Below are positions 14,515 to 29,143 of a DNA stretch of 64,000 nt, piece after piece. The notes under the pieces were generated by a model that was not told the origin of the DNA, ran no database searches, and saw only the letters and a program-made list of their open reading frames with translations. Both the position numbers and the translations under genes were made by a program. Numbering within the stretch: position 1 is the stretch's first letter; each line of letters opens with the position of its first letter. The stretch is from Desulfobotulus alkaliphilus (GTDB lineage: Bacteria > Desulfobacterota > Desulfobacteria > Desulfobacterales > ASO4-4): the NCBI RefSeq assembly GCF_007830435.1, contig NZ_VLLC01000006.1, positions 96,029 to 160,028 on the forward strand. Direction: 5' to 3'.

Positions 14515-15333
14515 TCAGATCTCAGGAACAAAGGGCAGGGCAAAGGTCATGGTGGCCGTGTAGCTGATGCTCTCACATTTTAAAGCCTTCTCACCCGTGG
14601 CGGGAAAACTCCGGCTGGCCGTTACGATCCAGGGACCGTAAAATTCTTCCAGCGTCAGCTTTGCCATGCCTGCGGCATTGGAGCGGGTTTTTTCTGTCCG
14701 GGCATTGGGCGCCACAAGGTTGCTTGCCGTCACTTCATAATCCGCTGCGGGCTTGCCATCCACCAGCACCCTGACCTCAAGGCTGTCCCCCGGCTGCAGG
14801 CGGTTGGGATTGACCATGGGCACAATTTCCACCTTCTGCCCTATGGGTGTTGCAAAGGGATTGCTGTCCGGTCCGTCTAAGGGAAGGGTCCGCTGGGGCA
14901 GAACAGAAACCAGGGCCTTGGCATATTTTTCATAATAGATCTGGTGAAAATCCTTTTTCCCTTCCACAGGACCATAAAAGGCTGGTTTTGTATGGGCCGC
15001 AAAAACCCTGGCTCCCGGCGTATGCATATCCACACGCAATGCCCGGAAACCCTCACTGCCCACCTCCATGGGAATACGGCTGCCATCGGGCTCTATGCGC
15101 TCCAGCCCGCCCCAGACCCTGTCCGAGATAAAATCCGCCACCGGATAACTGTGGCCCCACCCGAAATAAACAACGGTCTTGGCCCTTGGCGTGGGTGCAT
15201 ACTTGGCGTGCTGCCAGAGGGCAGGCGTATAATCGGTCATATTGATCCACAGATCATGGGCAAAAACCTGGGATACCATCAGGCCCAGTCCCATAAATAT
15301 GCCCGCCATCAACTTTCCTGCTTTTTTCTTCAT
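14515..15333 (-). CDS. Periplasmic DUF4198-like protein
   Basis: A 272-residue exported protein. The N-terminus MKKKAGKLMAGIFMGLGLMV...VFA is a signal peptide, and the mature part begins HDLWINMTDY, the His-rich start typical of DUF4198 / NikM-like proteins. Those proteins are often encoded next to nickel or cobalt uptake genes. A C-terminal immunoglobulin-like segment, LQPGDSLEVRVLVDGKPAADY with SNAAGMAKLTL, is also typical. The ATG at 15333 follows AAGGAG; the codon just before it is a GTG. It is divergent from the metal/redox locus starting at 15773 and probably belongs to it functionally. A metal-related role is inferred from family and context. Confidence 0.75.
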   Translation of the reverse strand: MKKKAGKLMAGIFMGLGLMVSQVFAHDLWINMTDYTPALWQHAKYAPTPRAKTVVYFGWGHSYPVADFISDRVWGGLERIEPDGSRIPMEVGSEGFRALRVDMHTPGARVFAAHTKPAFYGPVEGKKDFHQIYYEKYAKALVSVLPQRTLPLDGPDSNPFATPIGQKVEIVPMVNPNRLQPGDSLEVRVLVDGKPAADYEVTASNLVAPNARTEKTRSNAAGMAKLTLEEFYGPWIVTASRSFPATGEKALKCESISYTATMTFALPFVPEI

Positions 15334-15772
15334 CACCTTCTCCTTTTTTAGTTTAAGCGAAAAATCTAAAACAATGCCTACATTTCTGTTTTTTAAAAGT
15401 CAATTTGTTTTTGAATTGTAAAAATAAACTTTACACATACAAATTCTTTCCCCAAACCAATATTTTCAGCCATGGAAACCTGAATCAGAAAGATGACAGG
15501 AAGAGGCCCTGTGCCTTTGGCGGTCTCCCCTGAAGGACTCCTTCCCCATATCTTCCGGCTTTTCATCCAGTGATTTTGTAAACCGGATCTTTGCAAACTT
15601 AAACAATCTTTACAGATATAAATTATTTAGCCTAGACAAATTTTATTCTTGACTTCGCATACCACCCCGACTATCTCTTCCCGAATTGACAGAGGGATTT
15701 CCACGGCTCCCCATTCCGGGGCCTGAGCACAGGCAAAAAAATGACCCACATTTTTAAAAGGTTTTTTTACCC
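15334..15772. other. Divergent promoter region
   Basis: No gene is supported. The AT-rich segment 15355-15460, on the side of the DUF4198-like gene, likely holds its promoter. A second AT-rich stretch at 15600-15660 precedes the plus-strand gene. No regulator box was identified with confidence. Confidence 0.4.
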
Positions 15773-16999
15773 ATGAAAAAACGATGCCCCGCAGCAAGTC
15801 TTCCGCCCATGCAAAAATCCCGCAGGGGCAGGTGCTTTTTTCCACTGCTGCTTGCCCTTATCTTTTTTCTTCCCATGGCAAGCCCTGCAGACCCCGGCTT
15901 TCTTTTCCTTGAACCCGGCCCTGAAATGCGACGTTCCGGTGGGGGCAATACCCAGGGGGGCGGCCATGGTACAGGTATGGGTATGCAGAGAAAAAAAGAG
16001 GGGCAGGAAGCATCGGAAAATGAAAGGCAGGCCGACAGCAAAAAAACGGGAATGGAGGAAAAGGAAGAAAAAAGCGCCATGAAATCCAAGGGAAAGGGGC
16101 ATCCCGGATCAGCGGCTCCGGAATCGGAAAAAGGAGAAAAAAAAGAACGGGAAAAAAGGGCAGCCATGTCCCACCCCGCCCACTATACCCTGCTTCTGGG
16201 CTGGCCACCTGCCATGAAAGCCCAAGCCCCGGAGGATCTTCTCAGGGCAGAGACGGCCATCCTGAGACCGGATCTTTCCAGAGAGATTCTTACACCACAG
16301 AAAGAAGGCCCCGCCATCCGCATCCGGGATGCGGCCCTGATTCAGGGGACCTACCACATCAGCGCATCACTGGAAAAAACCGACGATGAGGGCAGGATAT
16401 TCAGGCTTTTCACCACAGCTTCCATGCGCAACACAGGAGAAAAGACAGATCCTCCCGAAAAAAATCCGGAAACTGCCCTTGAAGCCCATCTGCCATGGTT
16501 TTCCATGGAAGACCTGAGTCCGGATCCCGGCAACAACTTTGCAAGAATTCACAGAAAATATACGGGCGACACCCTGCCCCTGAGAATCCGGCTGGGGGGC
16601 ATGCCCGTACCGGACCTTCCCGTTACCCTCACCACGGCAGAGGGCTGGCAGCAGACCCTGCACACGGATGAGGCCGGTCAGGTCAAGTTCATCCTGATCA
16701 AAGAACGCTTCCATGACAAAGGTGTGAACAAAGCCCCCATTACCTTTTATGCAAGGGCAGAACTGGACAGCCGTTCCGAAAAGCATCTGGAGATCATAAA
16801 AAGCGTCCGACCGGATGCCGGTGACAATCCCCCCGCTGGAACAGAGATTCTACGCACCTCCCTTGCCCTGACCGTTCATCCCACGCCCCTGGACTGGGAA
16901 AGCCGGGCCGCAGGATTTTACACCCTGATTCTCACGGGCCTTGTCATCGGGCTGGGTACGGCCATCCGGAGAAGAAAACGGAGGGGAAGATGGTTCTGA
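15773..16999 (+). CDS. Exported, C-terminally membrane-anchored protein with Lys/Glu-rich linker and DUF4198-like fold
   Basis: A 408-residue protein of unknown function. Its N-terminal signal sequence is RRGRCFFPLLLALIFFLPMA. A low-complexity Gly, then Lys/Glu/Ser-rich linker spans roughly residues 50-128. The next region contains MSHPAHYTLLLGWPPAM. A domain resembling the C-terminal half of DUF4198/NikM-like proteins follows (DTLPLRIRLGGMPVPDLPVT, TDEAGQVKFILIKE). One transmembrane helix near residues 376-395 ends in RRRKRRGRWF, placing the bulk outside the cytoplasm. The ribosome site is weak, and an ATG 36 bases further down would give a more standard signal peptide. It lies 70 bases upstream of the membrane ferredoxin gene. 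Confidence 0.6.
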   Translation: MKKRCPAASLPPMQKSRRGRCFFPLLLALIFFLPMASPADPGFLFLEPGPEMRRSGGGNTQGGGHGTGMGMQRKKEGQEASENERQADSKKTGMEEKEEKSAMKSKGKGHPGSAAPESEKGEKKEREKRAAMSHPAHYTLLLGWPPAMKAQAPEDLLRAETAILRPDLSREILTPQKEGPAIRIRDAALIQGTYHISASLEKTDDEGRIFRLFTTASMRNTGEKTDPPEKNPETALEAHLPWFSMEDLSPDPGNNFARIHRKYTGDTLPLRIRLGGMPVPDLPVTLTTAEGWQQTLHTDEAGQVKFILIKERFHDKGVNKAPITFYARAELDSRSEKHLEIIKSVRPDAGDNPPAGTEILRTSLALTVHPTPLDWESRAAGFYTLILTGLVIGLGTAIRRRKRRGRWF

Positions 17000-17069
17000 T
17001 ACGGCCCCCATCAAGTGCTTGTCTCTGCAAGGAAATACCTGTTTTTTCGATTGTCCGGAGGAAAAAACC

Positions 17070-18092
17070 ATGCGCGTAGACCGTATCCGCCTCTTTGTTC
17101 AGGCCCTGTGTTTTGTTTTTCTCATCTATGGCGGCCTTACCATATTCTCCATTGGCACTGCCATTCCCACCATGGCCTGCATTTATGCGGAAAACCGGGG
17201 AGGCTCCTGCTTTCTTTATCCTTTTCAGCGCTTTCTCTCCATGCCCTGGGCCATGCTCTTCGGCAGTGCAGCCACAGCCTTTCTCATCTATCTGGGCACC
17301 TTTTTCCTGTGGGCGCTGGTTTTTGGTAAAACCTTCTGCGGCTGGATATGCCCCTTGGGTTTTCTTCAGGATCTCATCACAAAAATCCGGGAATGGGTGG
17401 GCATTGACGGCTCCCGCTTTGCCTGGAAAACACGGGACCGCTTCCAGTGGGTGAAGTATGCCCTTCTGGCACTGCTCATCCTTTTACCCATGGGCATAGG
17501 AAACAGCCTCCTCGGGCTGCCCAGATTCACGCCGGATCTGGCCGTTCCCTTCTGCCAGATCTGTCCGGGTAAACCCCTCATCCCCCTCTTTGAAGGCGAC
17601 CTCAGCCATCTGATCATTGATTTTTCCAGCACCACAAAACTTGTTCTCTCAAGCCTTTCCATGCTCATTGCAGGACTTTTCCTTGTGGGAGGCTTTGTCA
17701 AACGCCGCTACATCTGTGCCTTCTGCCCCATGGCGGCCCTGCTCTCCCTCTTTGACCGTATCGGCTTTGTGGGACTTAAAAAAAAAGGAGAAGCCTGCAC
17801 CTGCTGCGGCAACTGCTTCAGGGCCTGCCCCATGGAAATCCGGGAGATCGCCGAGCTCCGGGACAAAAAACACATGGTCACCCAGGACTGCATGCTCTGC
17901 ATGCGCTGCATTGAAGTCTGCCCGGAAAACAAGGCACTGACGGCCACCATCATAGGACTGCCCGTTTTTTCCGCATCCGCCGAAGGCTTCCTGAAACGCC
18001 AGAATAAAACAGCTTCAGCAGGAGGCCCCTTCCATGGGGAGACCCCGGCCCTGCAAGATACCGCCACAGACCCAGAAAGTGCTTCCAAATGA
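17070..18092 (+). CDS. NapH/NosR-type membrane 4Fe-4S protein
   Basis: A 340-residue inner-membrane iron-sulfur protein. About five hydrophobic helices carry the paired Cys motifs FCGWICPLGF and CAFCPMAALLS typical of NapH/CcoG/NosR (Fer4_5), plus FCQICPG. The C-terminal part is a two-cluster ferredoxin: CTCCGNCFRACP and CMLCMRCIEVCP. Such proteins pass electrons from quinol or ferredoxin across or along the membrane. CGGAGG precedes the ATG at 17070. Its stop overlaps the dehydratase-type gene by 4 bases (ATGA), suggesting it supplies electrons to that protein or its activase; this is inferred. Confidence 0.85.
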   Translation: MRVDRIRLFVQALCFVFLIYGGLTIFSIGTAIPTMACIYAENRGGSCFLYPFQRFLSMPWAMLFGSAATAFLIYLGTFFLWALVFGKTFCGWICPLGFLQDLITKIREWVGIDGSRFAWKTRDRFQWVKYALLALLILLPMGIGNSLLGLPRFTPDLAVPFCQICPGKPLIPLFEGDLSHLIIDFSSTTKLVLSSLSMLIAGLFLVGGFVKRRYICAFCPMAALLSLFDRIGFVGLKKKGEACTCCGNCFRACPMEIREIAELRDKKHMVTQDCMLCMRCIEVCPENKALTATIIGLPVFSASAEGFLKRQNKTASAGGPFHGETPALQDTATDPESASK

Positions 18093-19453
18093 AATCTGCC
18101 ATCATCAAAAAACTGTCTGCCATTTCCGGAAAAAAAAGCCCTGAGGCTGCGGGAAGTCCTGAAGGTTCTTCAAAGGGCTCTCCCGAAGACCGTGTGGCCA
18201 GACGCCTGTCCCTGCACATGGCCATGGCCGTGCGGGAAATTTATGACGCCATTGCCATGGAAAAAAACCGGCCCGTATCCATGACCCCCTTTGACACCCT
18301 TTTTAAAAACTTTGCCGATGCACCGGAAAAAATTCTGCCCACAGGTCCCAGAAAAAAAATCGGCATCTACTGCATGGCCGTGCCCGAAGAGCTGATCTAC
18401 GCCGCAGGTGCCCTTCCCGTAAGGCTCTGCGCGGGCAGCGGCGATGCCGCAGAAGCCGGAGAAGCCCTTTTTCCGGACGTCTCCTGCCCCATGGTCAAGG
18501 CGGCCACGGGCTTCACCCGCACAGGTGTTCTGCCCATGTACAGGGAATGCGATCTCATCATCATTCCCACCACCTGCGACTGGAAGGTCAAACTGGGGGA
18601 GCTGATCTCCCGCCATGTTCCCGTAATGATGCTCTCGGTCCCCAAGTTCAAGGCAGCGGAAAGCTCCCGCAGGTTCTGGTACGCAGAAATCCGCAGACTG
18701 ATGCATGCACTGGAAAAGGTTACCGGAAAACGCATCACCAGAAAAAAACTGAGGGCCGCCATGGATATGATGCACAAGGCCCAGCAGGAATTCAGAAGGC
18801 TGCAGACCCTGCGCATGGATGACCTTTCCCTTATCCGGGGCAGGGATGCGGCTGCCGTGGCCAATGCCTGGTTCTATATGGACGGAGCCGACTGGACCCT
18901 TGCTGCAAGAAATCTCAATGAAGAGCTTCTGGAAAGAAAAGAAAAGGGCATCGGCACAGCTCCCAGAACGGCCCCCCGCATTCTGCTCACCGGCTCCCCT
19001 GTGATTTTTCCCAACTGGAAAATACCGGATCTCATTGAAAATGCAGGCGGCACCCTCACCTGTGACGAGTTGTGCAGCTCCGGCAGGCTGCTCTGGGACA
19101 TGGCCTGCATCGACGAACCCCTTTTTGACGATATGCTGGATGCTCTGGCGGACCGCTGTCTCCTGCCCTGCACCTGCCCCGTGTTCACGGACAGGGAAGA
19201 CCGTAAAACCAGACTTTTCAGAATGATCAAAGACTACCGGGTGGAAGGGGTGGTGCATCACGTACTGAAAGGGTGCCATCCCTATGACATGGAACTGCGG
19301 CCCTTAGAGGCGGAGCTTGCTGCGGCAGGGGTTTCACAGCTCAAGATAGAAACGGACTACAGTCCCGAAGATACGGAACCCCTGCGCACCCGTGTGGAAG
19401 CCTTTGTGGAAACCCTTAAGGGCAGACGGCTGCGCATGGGAAAAAGCGCATAA
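18089..19453 (+). CDS. 2-hydroxyacyl-CoA dehydratase D-family (double-cubane-type) iron-sulfur protein
   Basis: A 454-residue member of the HgdB/FldB/DCCP family. Conserved Cys contexts appear in family order: GIYCMAVPEELIYAAGALP, FPDVSCPMVKA, IIPTTCDWKVK, TCDELCSSGR, LPCTCPVF and VLKGCHPYD. True 2-hydroxyacyl-CoA dehydratases need two such subunits. Only one is present here, together with one activase. This is the arrangement known for double-cubane [8Fe-9S] cluster proteins (DCCP), ATP-dependent reductases of small molecules. The first roughly 40 residues are a Ser/Gly/Glu-rich extension. It overlaps the membrane ferredoxin gene by 4 bases. The substrate cannot be told from sequence. Confidence 0.85.
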   Translation: MKSAIIKKLSAISGKKSPEAAGSPEGSSKGSPEDRVARRLSLHMAMAVREIYDAIAMEKNRPVSMTPFDTLFKNFADAPEKILPTGPRKKIGIYCMAVPEELIYAAGALPVRLCAGSGDAAEAGEALFPDVSCPMVKAATGFTRTGVLPMYRECDLIIIPTTCDWKVKLGELISRHVPVMMLSVPKFKAAESSRRFWYAEIRRLMHALEKVTGKRITRKKLRAAMDMMHKAQQEFRRLQTLRMDDLSLIRGRDAAAVANAWFYMDGADWTLAARNLNEELLERKEKGIGTAPRTAPRILLTGSPVIFPNWKIPDLIENAGGTLTCDELCSSGRLLWDMACIDEPLFDDMLDALADRCLLPCTCPVFTDREDRKTRLFRMIKDYRVEGVVHHVLKGCHPYDMELRPLEAELAAAGVSQLKIETDYSPEDTEPLRTRVEAFVETLKGRRLRMGKSA

Positions 19454-19629
19454 CCCAAGTCCACCAGAATAGTGACCATACTTCTGAAGGCTTCGTTTAA
19501 ATGGCTGCAAAATGGATATGTAGTACCCATAAAAAATCACTTCGCTTGATTTCATTGGATTTTCATAAAAAAAATGACGGGCTTGGGATAGAAAAAATGC
19601 ATAGAGAGGACGCATAGAAAGGAGGACAT

Positions 19630-20430
19630 ATGGATCTTTACCTTGGCATAGACATCGGCTCCACCACCACCAAAATTGCCCTCATGGATACCGAAGGCCT
19701 TATGGGAAGCCGGGTGCAGTCCACGGGAGTACACTGCGGTGACACCGTGGAAACCGCCCTGAAGGATCTTCTCCGTGAAACCGGTCTGCGGCGGGAAGAC
19801 ATCCGCAAAACCGTGGCCACGGGCTATGGCCGCCGCCTCATTCCCTTTGCCGATGAGGTGATCAGTGAAATTACGGCCAATGTCCGGGGAACCTCCTGGA
19901 GCTGCACGGATCTGGATACGCCGGTACGCACCATCCTCAACATCGGTGGGCAGGACAGCAAGGTCATTGCCGTAGACAGTTTCGGGGTTACGGAAAACTT
20001 TGCCATGAATGACAAGTGCGCCGCAGGAACGGGCCGTTTTCTGGAAACCGTGGCAAGGATACTGGAAATCAACATGACAGACTTAGGCCCCCTTTCCATG
20101 GAAGCGGAGATCCCCCTGAAAATCAATGCCACCTGTGCCGTGTTTGCGGAATCCGAAATCATCTCCCTCATTGCCCGTAAAAAAGCCCCCTCGGAAATTG
20201 CCGCAGGAGCCCACTATGCCATTGCAAGGCGGCTTTCCCGCATGGCACGGCGGGTGGGTGTGACGGAACCCGTGGCCTTTGACGGCGGCCCTGCCCTGAA
20301 CCGGGGCCTTGTAAAGGCCATAGAAGATGAGCTGGCCCTGGATATCCATGTCCCGGCATGGCCCCAGATCACAACGGCCATCGGTGCCGCCCTTCTGGCA
20401 AGGGATGCCCACATGGCGGCCGCCGCATGA
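19630..20430 (+). CDS. Acyl-CoA dehydratase activase / DCCP reductase (BadF/BadG/HgdC ATPase)
   Basis: A 266-residue ASKHA-fold ATPase. It has the phosphate-binding motif YLGIDIGSTTTKIAL, NIGGQDSKVIAV, the cluster-binding Cys in NDKCAAGTGRFLE and a second Cys in INATCAVFAESE, FDGGPALNRG and a C-terminal ITTAIGAALLA. As a homodimer such proteins hold one [4Fe-4S] cluster and drive ATP-dependent electron injection into their dehydratase-type partner, here the protein at 18089. AAGGAGGA precedes the ATG. A 176-base gap separates it from the partner gene, and the next gene overlaps by 4 bases. Confidence 0.92.
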   Translation: MDLYLGIDIGSTTTKIALMDTEGLMGSRVQSTGVHCGDTVETALKDLLRETGLRREDIRKTVATGYGRRLIPFADEVISEITANVRGTSWSCTDLDTPVRTILNIGGQDSKVIAVDSFGVTENFAMNDKCAAGTGRFLETVARILEINMTDLGPLSMEAEIPLKINATCAVFAESEIISLIARKKAPSEIAAGAHYAIARRLSRMARRVGVTEPVAFDGGPALNRGLVKAIEDELALDIHVPAWPQITTAIGAALLARDAHMAAAA

Positions 20431-21074
20431 GTGCTCTGCCTGCACTTCCCATGGAATTCCCCGCCCTTTTTCTGGCGGGTCTGGCCTTTGGCCTTGGCAT
20501 CTGCAGCACCTCCTGCCTTCCCCTGATGGGAACCTGCATTCTGGGAAACAGCAGGAAAGCTTCCGATGGCATACTGGCCCTGCTGAGCTTTGTCTGCGGC
20601 AGACTGTTCACCGCAGGCCTTATCGGTGCCATTTTCGGCAGGCTGGGGCAGGCGGCCATGGCCCGGCTGGAAACCCCGTCCATGGCACTGGCTTCGGGCC
20701 TCTTCACCCTTCTGGCGGGACTCTTTCTCCTGTTCCGGCCACGGTGCAGCGGATGTGCCAGCAGGAAAAGGGCGGCTGCCCCTCCCCTGCTGCTGGGTCT
20801 GGCAAGCCCTCTGGTGCCCTGCCTGCCCTATGCGGCCATGATGGCGGCAGCGGCGGCCTCGGGTTCCGCCATGAAGGGTGCGGGCCTTGCCGTGGTTTTC
20901 ACCCTTGGCACCAGCCTTTCTCCCCTGATTCTGGCCTGCATGGCCATGGGTTGGGTGGGAGCAGGCATGGCCGGAAAACTTCCCCGGCAGATTGAAGGCT
21001 TTTCAAGGGCTGCCGGACTGGTGGTGGCCATTTTCGGCATCAAAACCCTGCTGCTGGGTCTGGGGATGGCCTGA
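20427..21074 (+). CDS. CcdA/UreH-like membrane protein (DsbD/TauE-SafE superfamily)
   Basis: A 215-residue protein with about six hydrophobic helices. The first contains GICSTSCLPLMG, and a later one contains ASPLVPCLP, resembling the paired Cys/Pro motifs of CcdA/DsbD thiol electron carriers and of UreH-like sulfite-exporter family proteins. A cytoplasmic-loop Cys pair, RCSGCASRKRAA, follows helix three. The ATG at 20427 overlaps the activase stop (ATGA). A longer in-frame start inside the activase gene is rejected. It probably moves reducing equivalents or a metal across the membrane for the locus. The family assignment is approximate. Confidence 0.65.
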   Translation: MSALPALPMEFPALFLAGLAFGLGICSTSCLPLMGTCILGNSRKASDGILALLSFVCGRLFTAGLIGAIFGRLGQAAMARLETPSMALASGLFTLLAGLFLLFRPRCSGCASRKRAAAPPLLLGLASPLVPCLPYAAMMAAAAASGSAMKGAGLAVVFTLGTSLSPLILACMAMGWVGAGMAGKLPRQIEGFSRAAGLVVAIFGIKTLLLGLGMA

Positions 21075-21541
21075 GTGCAGAAGCAGGGACCAGATCATCC
21101 CTTGCAGGGGCAGGCCCCTGTGCCTCCCCTTCTCCCCTCTTCTGTCGGCGGGTACCCGTAAAGGGTTCCCCTACAAAAAGGGACCATAAAAAACATCCGT
21201 AGGGGCACCCCCCCTTGCCTGCCCTACCTGCTCCTTTATGGCGTTGAGGCTGGTTGTGGGTATTGTCCTTAAGGGCTTTAAGGTCGTTAAGGACTTTAAA
21301 GAAGATGAGGGTAAAAGCGCATTGCCGAACCCTCAAAACGATATTTTTACACCCCAGTGATCCTTGCGGCCATGGAAGTTCATGCCCTGCATGAACAGCC
21401 ATCGCCCAGGGTTTTAGTCGCAACTAAACCATTAAGCATGACAAAATTATTTTACATAAAATCTTTAACCTTTCTGATGACCAGCAAGGCTCAGACTGCG
21501 TGGTTATCAGATTCACTTTTAAGATATAAAGGAGATGTGGC
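21075..21541. repeat. Intergenic region with a degenerate copy of the dispersed repeat
   Basis: About 21148-21228 resembles the interior of the MITE copies at 23831 and 31355: GGGTACCCGTAAAGGGTTCC then CATCCGTAGGGGCACCC. No inverted ends remain. At 21262-21305 there is a CTTAAGG/CTTTAAGG-rich stretch similar in wording to the 67-bp tandem repeat at 24.6 kb. No cobalamin or other riboswitch was recognised before the TonB receptor gene. Confidence 0.5.
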
Positions 21542-23386
21542 ATGCATTGCAGCAGTTTGAAAAAAACCTTCTTTCCATTTCTGGCAGCAGGTCTTCTGGC
21601 CCTGCCCGCCCATGCCTTTCACCCGCCCGAAAGCGAGCTGGAGCAGATTGTGGTCAGTGCCAGCCGCAGCGAACAGCGGGTGGAAGACGCCATCAGTCAG
21701 GTTCATGTCATCACCGCAGCGGATATTGAAGCCCGGCAGATCAAAAATGTTCAGGGGCTTTTAAGGGATATCCCCGGCGTTCAGATCAGACAGAACACCG
21801 GCTCATGGGGCAATGGCGGCAATGTGCAGCTCATGGGCATGAACCCGGACCAGACCCTTATCCTTGTGGATGGACAGCGCTTCACGGGTGGGCACGGCAG
21901 TGTGGATATTTCCTCCATCCCCGTAGAAAACATTGAGCGCATCGAAATCGTCAAAGGCCCCGGTTCCGCCCTCTATGGCTCCGACGCCATGGCCGGTGTC
22001 ATCCATATCATCACAAAAAAAGCAGGAACAGGAACAGACTTCCGCACCGGCCTCAGCGCAGGCAGCCGGAACCGCTCCCTTGCCACGGCAGGGATGAGCA
22101 CGGGCAATGAAAACATGGGGCTTCGTCTGGATTACTCCCGCAGCCGCACCACCGGCGTTGATAAAGATGAAGACACCATGGAAAACGAAACCCTTGCCGC
22201 AAGCCTCGATTACCGGCCCACAGAAAGGTTCTCCCTGCGTATCCAGCCCTTTTTTTCCCGGCAGACCAATGAAGTTACAGGAGAAGCCAACCGCATTCAG
22301 GAACGCAGCCGCCTCAATGCCAGTGCGGATATCCGTCCCGATGCCCTTTCAAAGCTTCAGGTCCGGGGCAGTTATTTTTCCCATGACCACAAAAAAAAGG
22401 ACAAAAGCTTTGATTCCGTGTCCACCCTCCATGAGTTTGAAACCGCCTATTCCCGCATGGTGGGCCTCCACACCCTGAGTGCAGGCTATGCCTATACGGG
22501 GGAGTCCATTGACGACAAACACAAGAATTACACAAAAGACTCCCAGGATACCCATGCTGTTTTCCTGCAGGATGAAATGGACTTCGGCAGGCTTTCCCTC
22601 ACGGTGGGGGGCCGTGTGGACCACCATGATGAGTGGGGCACAGAGGCCCATCCCAGGGCAGGCCTCCTTTTCCGGGCAACGGACAATCTTCGGTTCAGGG
22701 CTTCCGCAGGCACGGCCTTCATGGCCCCCACCCTCCTGAAACTCTATGCCGACGGCTGGCGTATGGGCCCGTGGACCATGCATGCCAACCCCGACCTGAA
22801 GCCGGAAAAATCCCTCTCCTATCAGGCAGGCATGGACTATCAGATCCATGAAAGCCTTCTGGTACGGGCAGGCCTCTTCCGCAATGAAATTGATGATCTT
22901 GTTGAAACCTTAAGAAACACCCAGGCAAGGACCATGACCTACCGCAACATCAGCGAAGCCCTCACCCAGGGAGCAGAAACCAGCATCATCTGGCGGCCCG
23001 TATCCTCCTTTGCCGCCACCCTTGGCTACACCTGGACGGATACGGAAAACAAAGATACGGGAAAAAAACTTCTCGACCGGCCCGAACACAGGGCAACGCT
23101 GGATCTGGACTACCATCTGGCACGGCCCGACCTGCGTTTCCGCCTCACCACGGCATGGACAGGGGAACGGGAATATGAAGAACAAATGGCTCAGCACGGC
23201 CAGACCCTGACCATAAGAAAAACCCGCAGCGCCTACACCATGGTGGATCTGGCCATTACCCATCATGTCACAAAAAATCTTGAAATATTTACCCGCCTTG
23301 AAAACCTCACCAATGAAAAAGACGTTAGCGATGAGCCGGACATCGACGGTACGGAGTGGATGGCGGGCATGAATTTCAGGTTCTGA
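21542..23386 (+). CDS. TonB-dependent outer-membrane receptor
   Basis: A 614-residue receptor. It has a signal peptide (FFPFLAAGLLALPAHAF), a TonB-box-like EQIVVSASR, a plug domain (VHVITAADIEARQIKNVQGL, GPGSALYGSDAMAGVIHIIT), a 22-strand-type barrel and a terminal aromatic, NFRF. The size and plug suit the vitamin B12/catecholate/metal receptor group (BtuB/CirA-like). The ligand is unknown. AAGGAG lies 8 bases before the ATG. Placement behind the metal/redox genes suggests uptake of a metal or metal complex needed by that locus. A strong terminator follows. Confidence 0.88.
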   Translation: MHCSSLKKTFFPFLAAGLLALPAHAFHPPESELEQIVVSASRSEQRVEDAISQVHVITAADIEARQIKNVQGLLRDIPGVQIRQNTGSWGNGGNVQLMGMNPDQTLILVDGQRFTGGHGSVDISSIPVENIERIEIVKGPGSALYGSDAMAGVIHIITKKAGTGTDFRTGLSAGSRNRSLATAGMSTGNENMGLRLDYSRSRTTGVDKDEDTMENETLAASLDYRPTERFSLRIQPFFSRQTNEVTGEANRIQERSRLNASADIRPDALSKLQVRGSYFSHDHKKKDKSFDSVSTLHEFETAYSRMVGLHTLSAGYAYTGESIDDKHKNYTKDSQDTHAVFLQDEMDFGRLSLTVGGRVDHHDEWGTEAHPRAGLLFRATDNLRFRASAGTAFMAPTLLKLYADGWRMGPWTMHANPDLKPEKSLSYQAGMDYQIHESLLVRAGLFRNEIDDLVETLRNTQARTMTYRNISEALTQGAETSIIWRPVSSFAATLGYTWTDTENKDTGKKLLDRPEHRATLDLDYHLARPDLRFRLTTAWTGEREYEEQMAQHGQTLTIRKTRSAYTMVDLAITHHVTKNLEIFTRLENLTNEKDVSDEPDIDGTEWMAGMNFRF

Positions 23387-25044: not shown

Positions 25045-26172
25045 TCAGGAAAGAAAACTCCACAAAACCCCGGCGGCAATGGCAGAACCGATTACCCCTG
25101 AAATATTGGGGGCCATGGCATGCATCAGCAGAAAATTACCGGGATCTTCCTCTTGGGCCACATGATGCACCACACGGGCGGAATCCGGCACGGCCGACAC
25201 TCCCGCAGCGCCAATCAGGGGGTTGATTTTGGTTTTCAGAAAAAGATTCATGAACTTGGCAAAAAGCAGACCACAGGCCGTTGCCACGGCAAAACTCGCC
25301 GCTCCCAGCACAAAAATCCCTATGCTTTTTGCATTGAGAAACACATCCGCCTGGGTGCTGGCCCCAACGGTTACCCCCAAAAGAATGGTCACCGTATCAA
25401 TGATCACCGTACGGGCTGCCACAGCCAGACGATCCGTGACCACGGCCTCCTTGAGGAGATTCCCCAGAAAAAGCATACCCAGCAGGGGAAGGGCCGCAGG
25501 GGCTATGAAACAGCACATGAGAAGCCCTGTAATGGGAAAGAGAATTTTCTCCCTCTGGGAAACCTTTCTCGGCTCTTCCATGCGGATGCGGCGTTCTTTT
25601 TTCGTGGTGAGCAGCTTCATGACGGGTGGCTGGATCACTGGCACCAGCGCCATATAGGAATAGGCGGCAATGGCAATGGGTCCGATGAGATCAGGGGCAA
25701 GCATGGACGTAAGGAAGATGGCCGTGGGGCCATCCGCACCACCGATAATGCCTATACTGGCTGCCTCAAATGGAGAAAATCCGATGGCCAGAGCACCAAG
25801 AAAGGTAAGAAAAATACCCGTCTGGGCCGCAGCCCCCAGCAGCATCAGGGAGGGTCTTGCCAGAAGGGTGGAAAAATCCGTCATGGCTCCGATGCCAAGG
25901 AAAATCAGGGGCGGATAAATGCCGTGGGTAACGCCCATATAAAGGTAACCCAGAACGGAGCCTTCTTCATAAATGCTCAGGCCCAGCCCATGGAAGACCG
26001 GGATATTTCCCATGAGAATGCCAAATCCGATGGGCACCAGCAAAAGGGGTTCATAGCGTTTGACGATCCCCAGATAAATAAATACAAGCCCCACACAGAT
26101 CATGAAAACATGGCGGATATCAACCATATAAAAGCCGGTATTGGTTAAAAAATCCTGCAGCAGCGGGATCAT
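25045..26172 (-). CDS. Sodium-pumping decarboxylase beta subunit (OadB/MmdB/GcdB family)
   Basis: A 375-residue integral membrane protein with about nine hydrophobic helices. Diagnostic motifs are GIYPPLIFLGIGAMTDFS, the ion-site loop GIIGGADGPTAIFL with its essential Asp, and NPLIGAAGVSAVPDSARVVH near the end. The beta subunit carries out carboxybiotin decarboxylation coupled to export of Na+ in oxaloacetate, methylmalonyl-CoA or glutaconyl-CoA decarboxylases. The length is normal for the family. It is the last gene of the minus-strand operon that starts at 30949, 46 bases after the gamma-like gene. Confidence 0.93.
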   Translation of the reverse strand: MIPLLQDFLTNTGFYMVDIRHVFMICVGLVFIYLGIVKRYEPLLLVPIGFGILMGNIPVFHGLGLSIYEEGSVLGYLYMGVTHGIYPPLIFLGIGAMTDFSTLLARPSLMLLGAAAQTGIFLTFLGALAIGFSPFEAASIGIIGGADGPTAIFLTSMLAPDLIGPIAIAAYSYMALVPVIQPPVMKLLTTKKERRIRMEEPRKVSQREKILFPITGLLMCCFIAPAALPLLGMLFLGNLLKEAVVTDRLAVAARTVIIDTVTILLGVTVGASTQADVFLNAKSIGIFVLGAASFAVATACGLLFAKFMNLFLKTKINPLIGAAGVSAVPDSARVVHHVAQEEDPGNFLLMHAMAPNISGVIGSAIAAGVLWSFLS

Positions 26173-26218
26173 GTCTCTTCTTTCATGGTCAGTCGTTTCT
26201 GGTGTTCCTGCCGCCCGA

Positions 26219-26716
26219 TCAGGCCGGCAGGGCTCTGGACCCCTTTTTTACCTGAGATTCTCCGCCTTCAAAAAGCCCTTCAAAGGCTGCCTTTTCCCAG
26301 ACATAAAAGCCTCTTCCATCGGGCTTCAGCACGCCGGTACGCACAAGGTCTGCCAGAATGGCATGGGAGCGGGCAATCCCCCTTTTTTCCGCCTGTTCCA
26401 GAAGGCCCGGCAGAGACAAGGGAGATCCCATCTTTTCCGCCAGAAGGGCGTAGCTGCCGCAGGCTTCCTGAAAACCCGCAAAGCCTTTCAGAGCCGGAGT
26501 TTCAGGCCGGTCAGAAACAGACGCCCCCTCCGTGACAGGCCCCCCCTTCTTTACGGACTTACGGTCTTTCCGGGCGTCAAAAAAGGCAAGGATGCGGTGC
26601 AGACGGGAAATGCTGAAGGCCAGAAGACTCAGACAGGTGAAAACAATAAGAATACCAAGAAAGGCCATTTCCCAGCCATTGTGGCTGGCAATGGCATCCA
26701 GACCGTACTCAGGCAT
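26219..26716 (-). CDS. Sodium-pump gamma-like subunit with extra C-terminal domain
   Basis: A 165-residue protein with an N-terminal transmembrane helix (MAFLGILIVFTCLSLLAFSI) and an OadG-like juxtamembrane stretch. A roughly 90-residue soluble domain follows with winged-helix-like features (GSPLSLPGLLEQAEKRGI, ILADLVRTGVLKPDG). OadG proteins hold the alpha and beta subunits together and are usually shorter. The C-terminal domain is unusual. The ATG at 26716 has GGGGGAGG just upstream. A longer frame starting at 26887 lies inside the neighbouring gene and is rejected. It overlaps the cNMP-binding gene by 8 bases. Confidence 0.65.
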   Translation of the reverse strand: MPEYGLDAIASHNGWEMAFLGILIVFTCLSLLAFSISRLHRILAFFDARKDRKSVKKGGPVTEGASVSDRPETPALKGFAGFQEACGSYALLAEKMGSPLSLPGLLEQAEKRGIARSHAILADLVRTGVLKPDGRGFYVWEKAAFEGLFEGGESQVKKGSRALPA

Positions 26717-27188
26717 CTTTCCTCCCCCTGCTGAAATCCTCTTCCACAAAAATTCTTCCGCTGTTTTTCTTCGCCTGCCTCTGGTGCAGATAGGCCTGAA
26801 TGCTGCGGTGAATCCTGTCCGCAAAACGGGGGTGTTCTTCCAGCATACGATCCCTGCCGGAACGGTAGAGGGCCATGAGGGAACCATCGGTCAGGGCAAG
26901 GGCTCTGGCCGTATAACGGCCCTGATTCAGCATGGCGTTCATGCCGATCACCTCGCCACTGCCATGGAGGGTAAAGGCACTTCCGTCGGGAAAGGCCATG
27001 AGATAGTCACCGGAGATGGTGATATAAAGGGTTTCTGCCCTTCTTCCCCAACGGATAATCTCCTCGCCTTCCCGCACCCGGAAAACCTGCATATAGGCCG
27101 CAAGGACTTCAAGGGATTCCGGACTGACCCGCTTTAAAAGGGGCAGGGTTTTCAGAATACGCACCATGGTATCAGAAAGCGTATGCAC
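26709..27188 (-). CDS. Cyclic-nucleotide-binding domain protein without output domain
   Basis: A 159-residue CRP/FNR-fold ligand-binding domain: LKTLPLLKRVSPESLEVLAA, VREGEEIIRWGRRAETLYIT, GSGEVIGMNAMLNQGRYTAR-type phosphate-binding cassette and a C-terminal helix. No helix-turn-helix follows. The usual cNMP Arg-Ala/Ser pair appears as YTARAL. The start is a GTG at 27188, 7 bases after AAGGAG. It is embedded between the alpha and gamma genes of the sodium pump, 11 bases after the alpha stop and overlapping gamma, so it may be a regulatory subunit. The ligand is unknown. Confidence 0.75.
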   Translation of the reverse strand: MHTLSDTMVRILKTLPLLKRVSPESLEVLAAYMQVFRVREGEEIIRWGRRAETLYITISGDYLMAFPDGSAFTLHGSGEVIGMNAMLNQGRYTARALALTDGSLMALYRSGRDRMLEEHPRFADRIHRSIQAYLHQRQAKKNSGRIFVEEDFSRGRKDA

Positions 27189-27199
27189 AAAAAATCTCC

Positions 27200-29143
27200 T
27201 TATCCGATACGGCAGAGAACCGCATCCTTGGCAACGGAATCCCCGCTTCGTACAGAGAGGGTCAGAATTACCCCTGAAACCGGAGCCACAAGGGCATTTT
27301 CCATTTTCATGGCCTCCAGAATCACCACGGTTTCTCCGGCTTTCACACTGTCCCCCTCCTTTTTCCGGAAGGAAACCACCATTCCGGGCATGGGCGCCAC
27401 AAGGGGAGTTCCCTCATCCCCATCATTTGCAGGGGCAGGAATGGAAGCCTGGGCTTTTTTGACGGGGCCTGCATCATCTGCTTCCCTGAGCGTCTTTTTT
27501 TCCGCAGCAGGCGGGGTCAGGGGAAAGGCATGGCGGATCACCGGAGCCCCTCCCACCTCGTCCACACCCACCTCATAATAGGTGTCGTCCACAAAGACAT
27601 TGAAGGTGCGGATATAGGGACTTTTTTCCGGCACTTTCTCAGGCTCTGTGATTTTATGCTCCCCTGCCAGAATCCGGATCATCCGCTCCCGTATTTTCAT
27701 GGCCTCTTCCAAGGTCCGGGGAAGGGTGTATTCCGGAGGCGTTTCCTTGCCGTATTTCCAGCGCAGAAAACGTTTACCTGTCACAGGAAAAAGGGCACAG
27801 AGCAGTTCATCTTCAATATCCGCAGCCAGCCCCCGCAACTCTTCCCGCACCCCCGGCAGTTCAGGCTTCAGGGCTTCTCCGGGCCGTTCCCGCAAAGGAC
27901 GCACACCCCTTGGATGGCCCTCAAGGGCTTTTTTTCTTAAGGCAGCGTCCAGGGGGCCGGGAGGCTCGCCGTGAAGGCCAGCGCAGAAATCCCTTATCTG
28001 GGAAGAAATCATACGGTAGGATTCCCCTTCCGTATCAAACAGCACATTGTTCACGGCCTGGGTTCCCAGAATGCGGATCAGGGGCCTGACCAGAGGCGGA
28101 TTGCCCAGATCCCTGCGCACCCTTTCCAGTTCTTTGAAAACCGCATCCAGCCTGTCTTCGGCCCCGGTTTCTTCCAGCTGACGCTTCAGGTCCGCTTCCA
28201 TGCCTCCGGGAAGGCTGTGGATCAGTGCCGTGGTGTCCATGGGTGTTGTGCTGCCGCCATAGAAATGCCAGTATTTGGGAAGAATTTCCTCTTCGCTGAG
28301 CCGGTTCAGAGGAGCGATTCTTTCAAGATCAAGGCCCGTATCCCGATCGCCTCCCTTCAGGGCTGCAATCAGGGGCTCCACGGCACCATGGCTGCTTCGC
28401 ATGGCAAAGGGAGCAAGGCAGGTGTCCGCACCGTCAGCGCCTGCCTCCACAGCGGCAAAAAGGGAAAGGGGACCAAAGCCTGCCGTGGCATGGGTATGAA
28501 TATGAAGGGGCAGAGATACGGCCGCTTTCAGACCCGCAACCAGTTTCCGGGCCTCTCCGGGCATGAGAAGCCCTGCCGTGTCTTTGATCAGCAGGGAATG
28601 GGCACCCATATTTTGCAGGGCAATGGCTTTTTTCACATAATATTCCAGCGTATACAGGCTTTCTTCCTCCGGAAAGGCTGCCGTCCGGCTGTAACAGATA
28701 CATCCCTGAAAATGGGCGCCTGCCTGTAAAACACTTTCTCCGGCAACCTGAAGATTGCGCAGATCATTCATGGGATCAAAGAGCCTGAAAACCCGTATTC
28801 CGTTCACATGGCTCCGCTCCACAAAGGCCCGGACCACATCATCCCCATAACAGCGTTCCCCCACAAGGTGCTGGCCCCTGAGCATGCAGGCCATGGGGGT
28901 TTTTGTGAAATACCGTTTCAGGCTGCGAATGCGCTCCCAGGGATCTTCATTCAACTCCCTGTGCATCACATCAAAGCCCGTTCCGCCCCAGACCTCCACG
29001 GCCCAGAAGCCCACATCATCCATCAGTGCTGCCATGCGTACCATATCCGCCGTACGGCCCCGTCCCGCATAAAGGCACTGAAAGCCATCCTGCAGGCTCA
29101 CATCACAGATCGCCAGAGGTTTCTGATTCATCACCGGTTCCAT
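27200..29143 (-). CDS. Carboxyltransferase-biotin carrier protein (OadA / PycB-like alpha subunit)
   Basis: A 647-residue protein. The N-terminal TIM-barrel carboxyltransferase domain has FRLFDPMNDLRNL, LLIKDTAGLLMPG with the active-site Lys, and metal ligands in LHIHTHATAGFG. A PYC/OADA helical domain is followed by a linker and a biotinyl domain with EAMKMEN (Lys613). Canonical family members read RDAHQ at the first metal-ligand strand; here the sequence is LQDGFQ, so Arg becomes Gln and His becomes Phe. It may decarboxylate oxaloacetate, act as the 5S-like part of a transcarboxylase, or serve mainly as biotin carrier for the MmdA-like subunit at 29396. AAGGAG precedes the ATG. Confidence 0.85.
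   Translation of the reverse strand: MEPVMNQKPLAICDVSLQDGFQCLYAGRGRTADMVRMAALMDDVGFWAVEVWGGTGFDVMHRELNEDPWERIRSLKRYFTKTPMACMLRGQHLVGERCYGDDVVRAFVERSHVNGIRVFRLFDPMNDLRNLQVAGESVLQAGAHFQGCICYSRTAAFPEEESLYTLEYYVKKAIALQNMGAHSLLIKDTAGLLMPGEARKLVAGLKAAVSLPLHIHTHATAGFGPLSLFAAVEAGADGADTCLAPFAMRSSHGAVEPLIAALKGGDRDTGLDLERIAPLNRLSEEEILPKYWHFYGGSTTPMDTTALIHSLPGGMEADLKRQLEETGAEDRLDAVFKELERVRRDLGNPPLVRPLIRILGTQAVNNVLFDTEGESYRMISSQIRDFCAGLHGEPPGPLDAALRKKALEGHPRGVRPLRERPGEALKPELPGVREELRGLAADIEDELLCALFPVTGKRFLRWKYGKETPPEYTLPRTLEEAMKIRERMIRILAGEHKITEPEKVPEKSPYIRTFNVFVDDTYYEVGVDEVGGAPVIRHAFPLTPPAAEKKTLREADDAGPVKKAQASIPAPANDGDEGTPLVAPMPGMVVSFRKKEGDSVKAGETVVILEAMKMENALVAPVSGVILTLSVRSGDSVAKDAVLCRIG

Follow-up and report, generated by a model that had tools for sequence, protein, structure and literature searches.

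What does a lone double-cubane-type protein do when its gene is joined to that of a membrane ferredoxin and followed by that of an outer-membrane receptor? The question is raised by a locus of Desulfobotulus alkaliphilus (genome of 4.0 Mb in 95 contigs, 98% complete), which lies in a stretch of 64,000 nucleotides on contig NZ_VLLC01000006.1, here called the window. Between positions 15773 and 23386 six genes follow one another on the plus strand and encode an exported protein, a NapH-like membrane ferredoxin, a relative of the double-cubane cluster protein (DCCP), an activase, a DsbD_2 protein and a TonB-dependent receptor (Table 1), with the positions and identities given in a first-pass annotation of the sequence. 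This gene set, hereafter the module, recurs across phyla, and we lean slightly towards reading it as an ATP-driven reductase that would pass electrons of low potential through the inner membrane and so free metal from a complex imported by the TonB receptor.

The DCCP-like protein and the layout of the locus

The HGD-D family (PF06050) has exactly one match in the whole genome, and a genome-wide search with this profile found no second dehydratase subunit, in line with the earlier claim of one subunit instead of two; the pair of different HGD-D subunits that marks 2-hydroxyacyl-CoA dehydratases and class I benzoyl-CoA reductases was not found. The protein scored 335.1 bits against the double-cubane model NF040772 (curated cut-off 350), compared with 113.5 bits against the HadC model and at most 85 bits against benzoyl-CoA reductase subunits, and the solved DCCP structures 7yyl and 6eno match it with E-values of 5e-68 and 1e-67. 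On the single subunit and the weak HadC and benzoyl-CoA reductase scores we rejected a catabolic dehydratase identity, as had been anticipated. A remnant of either catabolic enzyme would also belong to HGD-D, but with only one subunit, these model scores and conserved neighbors foreign to acyl-CoA pathways such an origin is hardly credible.

Six cysteines (C95, C133, C163, C329, C363 and C396) align with positions common to DCCP (6ENO) and BzdN. They are kept by 86-89 of the 91 proteins from modules and by 25/25 controls and are the putative cluster ligands. The [8Fe-9S] cluster of DCCP and BzdN has six cysteine-bound irons; acetylene, hydrazine and azide are substrates that double-cubane proteins reduce, their biological function being stated as unknown (PMC11971306). 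Across module loci the two presumed cluster cysteines of the activase are invariant (82/82 and 81/81). The locus resembles DCCP and its reductase DCCP-R (PDB 6ENO, 7YYL; relatives are E. coli YjiM/YjiL) in its single HGD-D subunit, its one BcrAD-type activase and the six shared cysteine positions. Unlike canonical DCCP, most module proteins carry an additional C361 (75/91 vs. 0/25 controls), and the protein of the window falls just under the NF040772 cut-off. Activase domains of this type (PF01869) have three matches in the genome, one beside the DCCP-like gene and two on contig 10; the latter (131239-132969) are on the same strand, each in a 1412-codon frame, probably one and the same.

The NapH-like and DCCP-like genes are coupled by the four-base ATGA overlap noted earlier (18089-18092), and a second ATGA overlap, absent from the first-pass annotation, links the activase and DsbD_2 genes (20427-20430). 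The gaps measure 70 bases between the exported-protein and NapH-like genes, 176 between the DCCP-like and activase genes, and 467 before the receptor gene, which lies on the same strand. A 436-base intergenic region is common to the module and a divergent gene for an exported DUF4198 protein. No Rfam family, hence no riboswitch, and no tRNA gene were found in the window; in eight related loci the Rfam search matched only two tRNA-type genes.

Table 1. Features of the module and its divergent neighbor (positions in the window)
Feature	Coordinates	Strand	Matches and remarks
Exported DUF4198 protein	14515..15336	-	PF10670 85.8 bits, cut-off 34; divergent from module
Exported protein, C-terminal membrane anchor	15773..16999	+	predicted Zcp/DUF4198-like fold
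NapH-like membrane ferredoxin	17070..18092	+	Fer4_5 PF12801, PF13237; two C-terminal [4Fe-4S] motifs
Double-cubane-cluster-family protein (HGD-D)	18089..19453	+	PF06050 325 bits
ATPase activase, BcrAD/HgdC type	19630..20430	+	TIGR00241 249 bits, cut-off 125; PF01869
DsbD_2 / CcdA-like membrane protein	20427..21074	+	PF13386 59.3 bits, cut-off 24.9
TonB-dependent outer-membrane receptor	21542..23386	+	PF00593, PF07715

Conservation of the module

DCCP-type proteins (E≤1e-60) occur in 95 of 291 genomes of the class to which Desulfobotulus belongs. A close group at 44-94% identity to the protein of the window comes from two genomes of the same genus (G024, G025), from G226 (twice) and from G064, G161, G181 and G251. 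The remaining proteins of the class are at 33-38% identity; one of them (G066, 37%) carries the array nonetheless, and G025 encodes proteins of both groups. The order NapH, DCCP, activase recurs in the relatives, with DsbD_2 in most and a TonB receptor in eight of the nine module regions first read.

A profile built from nine DCCP-like proteins, all NapH-linked, yielded 80 named loci, selected by DCCP similarity and not by their neighbors. These 80 (of at least 165 confirmed relatives), nine of twelve early regions and the window, minus the duplicates L051, L060 and L107, form a set of 87 loci in which near-copies were kept (e.g. L087/L109 and L119/L120); the other three early regions (L044-L046) are canonical DCCP. 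The 20 canonical DCCP controls were hand-picked from the other matches in the class and all belong to it. Neighbor profiles were built from module loci and run on all frames, those for DCCP and activase finding 20/20 and 19/20 of the controls. Labelled taxa include Pseudomonadota, Thermodesulfobacteriota, Nitrospirota, Bacteroidota, Spirochaetota, Lentisphaerota, Bacillota and others, several records being metagenome bins of doubtful taxonomy.

NapH lies upstream on the same strand in 77 of the 79 loci with room (1 kb to spare) and in none of the 20 canonical loci (Fisher p 5e-19); it is present further upstream in L038 and L125, and one canonical locus has a weak NapH match elsewhere than upstream. 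Similar differences were found for the exported protein upstream (64/73 with room vs. 0/20, p 9e-14) and for DsbD_2 downstream (59/73 vs. 0/20, p 1e-11). TonB receptors, counted irrespective of strand and over the full length of the fetched stretch (median 16 kb in the clade, 12-17 kb in controls), accompany 51 of 63 loci with room vs. 2 of 19 controls (p 4e-8). A downstream activase is shared by both types (75/77, the exceptions being L115 and L125, vs. 18/20; p 0.19). The neighbors singled out in the first-pass annotation are therefore conserved far above the level of canonical DCCP loci. When the ten seed loci are left out, the counts are 68/69 for NapH, 65/67 for activase, 53/64 for DsbD_2, 55/63 for the exported protein and 42/53 for the receptor. 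All six parts occur together in 40 of the 87 loci, and ExbB, ExbD and TonB genes are found in 23, 21 and 22 of them. Less frequent neighbors are MacB-like genes (near 6/87 loci) and membrane-fusion proteins (near 10/87); the names of other cluster neighbors rest on one scanned representative each.

On a quick unrooted tree of 116 DCCP-type proteins the NapH-linked label requires 4 changes, as opposed to 25.3 in shuffles, and the NapH-linked proteins may include canonical DCCP as a nested group. Five Gram-positive loci (L089, L092, L097, L098, L114) encode, upstream of the NapH-like gene, an additional DCCP paralog that sits on a long branch; these paralogs lack cluster cysteines, C363 being missing in every one.

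Two further gene groups were observed. Downstream of one module in G226 (L037:11644-16001) a nitrogenase-like set is encoded, made up of two nitrogenase-component-1-like proteins, one NifH/CfbC-like protein and one NifB-like radical SAM protein. In the window, genes of an oxaloacetate-decarboxylase-type sodium pump lie at 25045-29143, with a cyclic-nucleotide-binding-like protein among them (26709-27188); the label of the gamma chain comes from a profile scan (PF04277), the other labels from reading the sequence.

Envelope components and the direction of electron flow

The NapH-like protein most likely starts at the ATG at 17070, behind GGAGG, which gives 340 amino acids. It stays below the cut-offs of NF007013 (77.3 bits, cut-off 234) and TIGR02163 (76.8 bits, cut-off 213). 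Four extra cysteines, C37, C47, C162 and C165, are kept in 77/79, 79/79, 82/82 and 83/83 proteins and are absent from E. coli NapH. By a topology prediction from hydropathy and charge they would sit in periplasmic loops. In two Gram-positive loci a domain resembling the exported protein is fused to the NapH-like protein.

The exported protein encoded at 15773-16999 has no Pfam or NCBIfam match, hence none to DUF4198; its structure model matches the fold of solved Zcp/DUF4198 members, and we predict a periplasmic protein with this metal-binding fold. DUF4198-like exported proteins had been noted beside the set, which holds for the divergent gene by Pfam and for the module gene by predicted fold only. 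Among the 34 A3 members, 23 have DUF4198 Pfam matches (E≤0.001, best E 5e-7), and one with bits reported scores below the cut-off. An HxCxxGH motif occurs in 34 of 69 exported proteins of module loci. The divergent DUF4198 protein resembles Zcp weakly (9mhk/9mhi, E 4e-5); its gene adjoins the module in the window and both same-genus loci, DUF4198 matches being found in 7/87 loci overall, and it is likely an accessory.

The DsbD_2 protein has near-invariant cysteines in C-x3-C, a single C and PCxP (62/62, 61/62, 61/61 and 61/61). For the receptor the nearest structures are Cir (2hdf, E 8e-50) and BtuB (E 7e-41), and the scores are 254.4 bits against the BtuB model TIGR01779 (cut-off 599.7) and 55.5 bits against the OprC/NosA copper receptor TIGR01778 (cut-off 472). 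Naming its ligand by model was abandoned, as B12, catecholate, heme and siderophore models all match nearly every receptor scanned (that of the window and 40 of the 62 others). The metal-complex uptake proposed earlier is a good inference and not a result. Two side observations concern other envelope proteins. In L089 (12997-13506), L092 (12816-13319), L097 (12858-13358) and L098 (12587-13105) a small anchored exported protein with a C-terminal CGGCGKNCSL-like cysteine motif, perhaps an outer iron-sulfur carrier, directly follows DsbD_2; in L042 (2733-3617) and L107 a member of the CbiK family, apparently carrying a signal peptide, adjoins the module, near a fragment reading like a periplasmic binding protein.

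In the reading that we favor, the activase would spend ATP to charge an [8Fe-9S] cluster of the DCCP-like protein, as in known DCCP, and the NapH-like protein would take up the electrons from there with its cytosolic clusters. The electrons would cross the membrane through its CX2-3CP motifs to the periplasmic cysteine quartet. On the outer side, the exported protein may present the metal complex brought in by the TonB receptor, or receive the released metal, and DsbD_2 may maintain reduced periplasmic thiols or assist metal transfer. Electron direction, cluster type and metal identity are inferred. An ATP-driven reductase fed from the membrane had been suggested before, and the three checks named with that suggestion all spoke for it: no second subunit was found in the genome, the protein is closest to DCCP and not to catabolic dehydratases, and the neighbors are strongly conserved. 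Feeding from the membrane was not established.

Electrons could instead run inwards, as in the first-pass version, the NapH-like protein taking them from the quinone pool or the proton-motive force and feeding the activase, so that the DCCP-like protein would reduce a small imported substrate in the cytoplasm and DsbD_2 would serve as a UreH-like permease. Gene order and coupling fit this direction equally well, and DsbD_2 proteins include presumed metal permeases. However, quinol is far too oxidizing to charge the activase without extra energy, and the added outer cysteines and the extracytosolic domain fused in two loci, which appear to fit outward flow better, would be needless for an inward donor. 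Although NapH has been called a putative quinone-binding subunit (PMC8238504), we consider inward flow rather unlikely.

Regulation, candidate metals and related systems

A palindrome, TGYGRCA-AWT-TGYCRCA, precedes the module in 20 of 64 regions (score ≥12), compared with 0/20 canonical DCCP upstream regions and 3/320 random stretches of the same loci; its profile was trained on the regions in which it was counted. A genome-wide scan is the better test: twelve genomes chosen for this operator have 62 forward matches (at most one mismatch) vs. 3 for the reversed pattern, and 38 regions around a subset of these sites were read. The palindrome is a candidate RegA/PrrA-type operator. It lies before RegB/PrrB-like kinases in six genomes (G291, G296, G297, G298, G299, G302), before NosL and then a kinase-like gene in G292, G293 and G294, and before OprC-like receptors in G297, G298, G299 and G300, so that NosL or OprC-like genes carry it in 7/12 genomes. 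It also precedes PCuAC in G298, ccoN in G291 and a split-Soret-like cytochrome c in G292 and G295, and a cytochrome c' gene lies near an operator. Several of these proteins score below their family cut-offs (both RegB-like kinases scanned, with 238 and 208 bits, cut-off 350; an OprC-like receptor with 128, cut-off 472; a split-Soret-like cytochrome with 134, cut-off 400). In L196 (3567-4364) and L204 (3671-4471) the operator shared with the module precedes genes for split-Soret-like cytochrome c.

Copper genes also stand next to some modules: NosL and a kinase-like gene adjoin it in L075, and OprC-like genes lie upstream in L090 (with PCuAC) and L093; NosL or PCuAC was found in no other searched locus. 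For lineages that have the RegA-type operator, copper is the probable metal, and for the 12 loci with CobN-like genes it is perhaps a metal tetrapyrrole; 8 of these 12 loci also hold a MotA/ExbB-family gene and a DUF2149 gene.

The redox-regulator type of the operator and its place at ccoN and cytochrome genes would also suit a general envelope redox module, which would supply ATP-driven electrons for disulfide or heme-protein homeostasis at low oxygen, with the TonB receptor as a frequent lodger and not a direct partner. DsbD_2 suggests thiol transfer, and Gram-positive loci have no TonB receptor. Against this stand the receptor excess over controls, the same-strand ExbB/ExbD/TonB genes of 21-22 of the 87 loci and the predicted metal-binding fold of the exported partner, and we regard such a general role as quite improbable.

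The metal-reductase reading follows the logic of periplasmic reduction in PepSY, FpvG and HmuS systems, with the DCCP-like protein and activase replacing flavin or heme. Periplasmic reduction of iron after its import has been proposed for clusters in which a TonB receptor and DUF4198 occur with a PepSY membrane carrier (PMC8238504), and pyoverdine iron is freed by FpvG, the ligand being recycled by PvdRT-OpmQ (PMC6954188). The module shares with FpvG and the PepSY-DUF2271-ApbE-DUF4198 (-TonB receptor) clusters the receptor, a DUF4198-type exported protein and a periplasm-facing transmembrane carrier, and the MacB-like and membrane-fusion genes near some loci recall PvdRT-OpmQ. In Caulobacter, DUF4198 genes are under the control of iron and Fur (PMC3751524), and in Alteromonas they are found together with iron-responsive receptors (PMC7190382). 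Unlike these clusters, the module would draw its electrons from an ATP-driven double-cubane protein and shows no excess of Fur boxes; neither PepSY nor DUF2271 turned up in the ten proteins of the window that were scanned. The cupric reductase CcoG (RdxA) of cbb3 assembly (PMC7558416) is likewise a membrane-bound iron-sulfur carrier, and in some relatives the module lies near, or is co-regulated with, copper genes. CcoG differs in that the module has a DCCP-like partner and a TonB receptor; the added outer cysteines were judged against E. coli NapH, not CcoG. Extracytosolic reductases have been described as partners that NapH-like carriers serve, and carriers with an extracytosolic flavin mononucleotide (FMN) domain also combine a membrane ferredoxin with an outer partner, fused in some (PMC8238504). 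In the module this partner is predicted to be Zcp/DUF4198-like and not an FMN domain. The MotA/ExbB-family and DUF2149 genes that accompany CobN-like genes recall hmuU/hmuV of heme de-chelation, in which HmuS activity depends on the membrane fraction and NADH (PMC12583661), the relatives' CobN-like proteins being candidate HmuS proteins.

Several points weigh against the proposed metal reductase. The DCCP-like protein is just under the curated DCCP cut-off. A TonB receptor is missing from 12 of 63 loci with room and DsbD_2 from 14 of 73, and in Acetobacterium, Oscillospiraceae and Coriobacteriales the core occurs with no receptor, so outer-membrane uptake is not intrinsic to the module. None of 73 upstream regions has a Fur-box excess at p≤0.05 (60 shuffles each, ties making the test conservative), and CobN-like genes (12/87 loci vs. 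0/20 controls) are not significantly enriched (p 0.12). The window has no RegA/PrrA-type operator (best score -3.1), its exported protein lacks HxCxxGH, and its genome has no match to CobN (PF02514) and no NosL; the copper and tetrapyrrole links therefore come from relatives only. Reduction of ordinary Cu(II) or Fe(III) needs no such low potential, which leaves the expense of ATP without an explanation for all but very stable complexes; we conjecture that low potential would be needed only for these. For NapH-like carriers, uptake of electrons from extracytosolic oxidases has been described as well (PMC8238504).

In its most specific form, in which a double-cubane cluster charged by ATP would, in bacteria of many phyla, export electrons of very low potential via a dedicated membrane ferredoxin to a periplasmic Zcp-like site and so prise copper or other metals from otherwise unbreakable complexes imported by the TonB receptor, the proposal is tentative. 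All component families are known; searches of open-licence PubMed Central articles yielded no description of this set, in keeping with the first-pass view of an undescribed set, nor of the breadth of the assembly.

If the reading is true, the double-cubane family would gain a physiological role, as an ATP-driven metal reductase facing the periplasm, and the conserved partners (membrane ferredoxin, protein with a predicted metal-binding fold and TonB receptor) make this role concrete and testable in many genomes. The question of the purpose of double-cubane clusters would then be linked to that of the supply of reducing power to the periplasm for the release of imported metals, an example of the latter being the route of NADH-derived electrons to HmuS.

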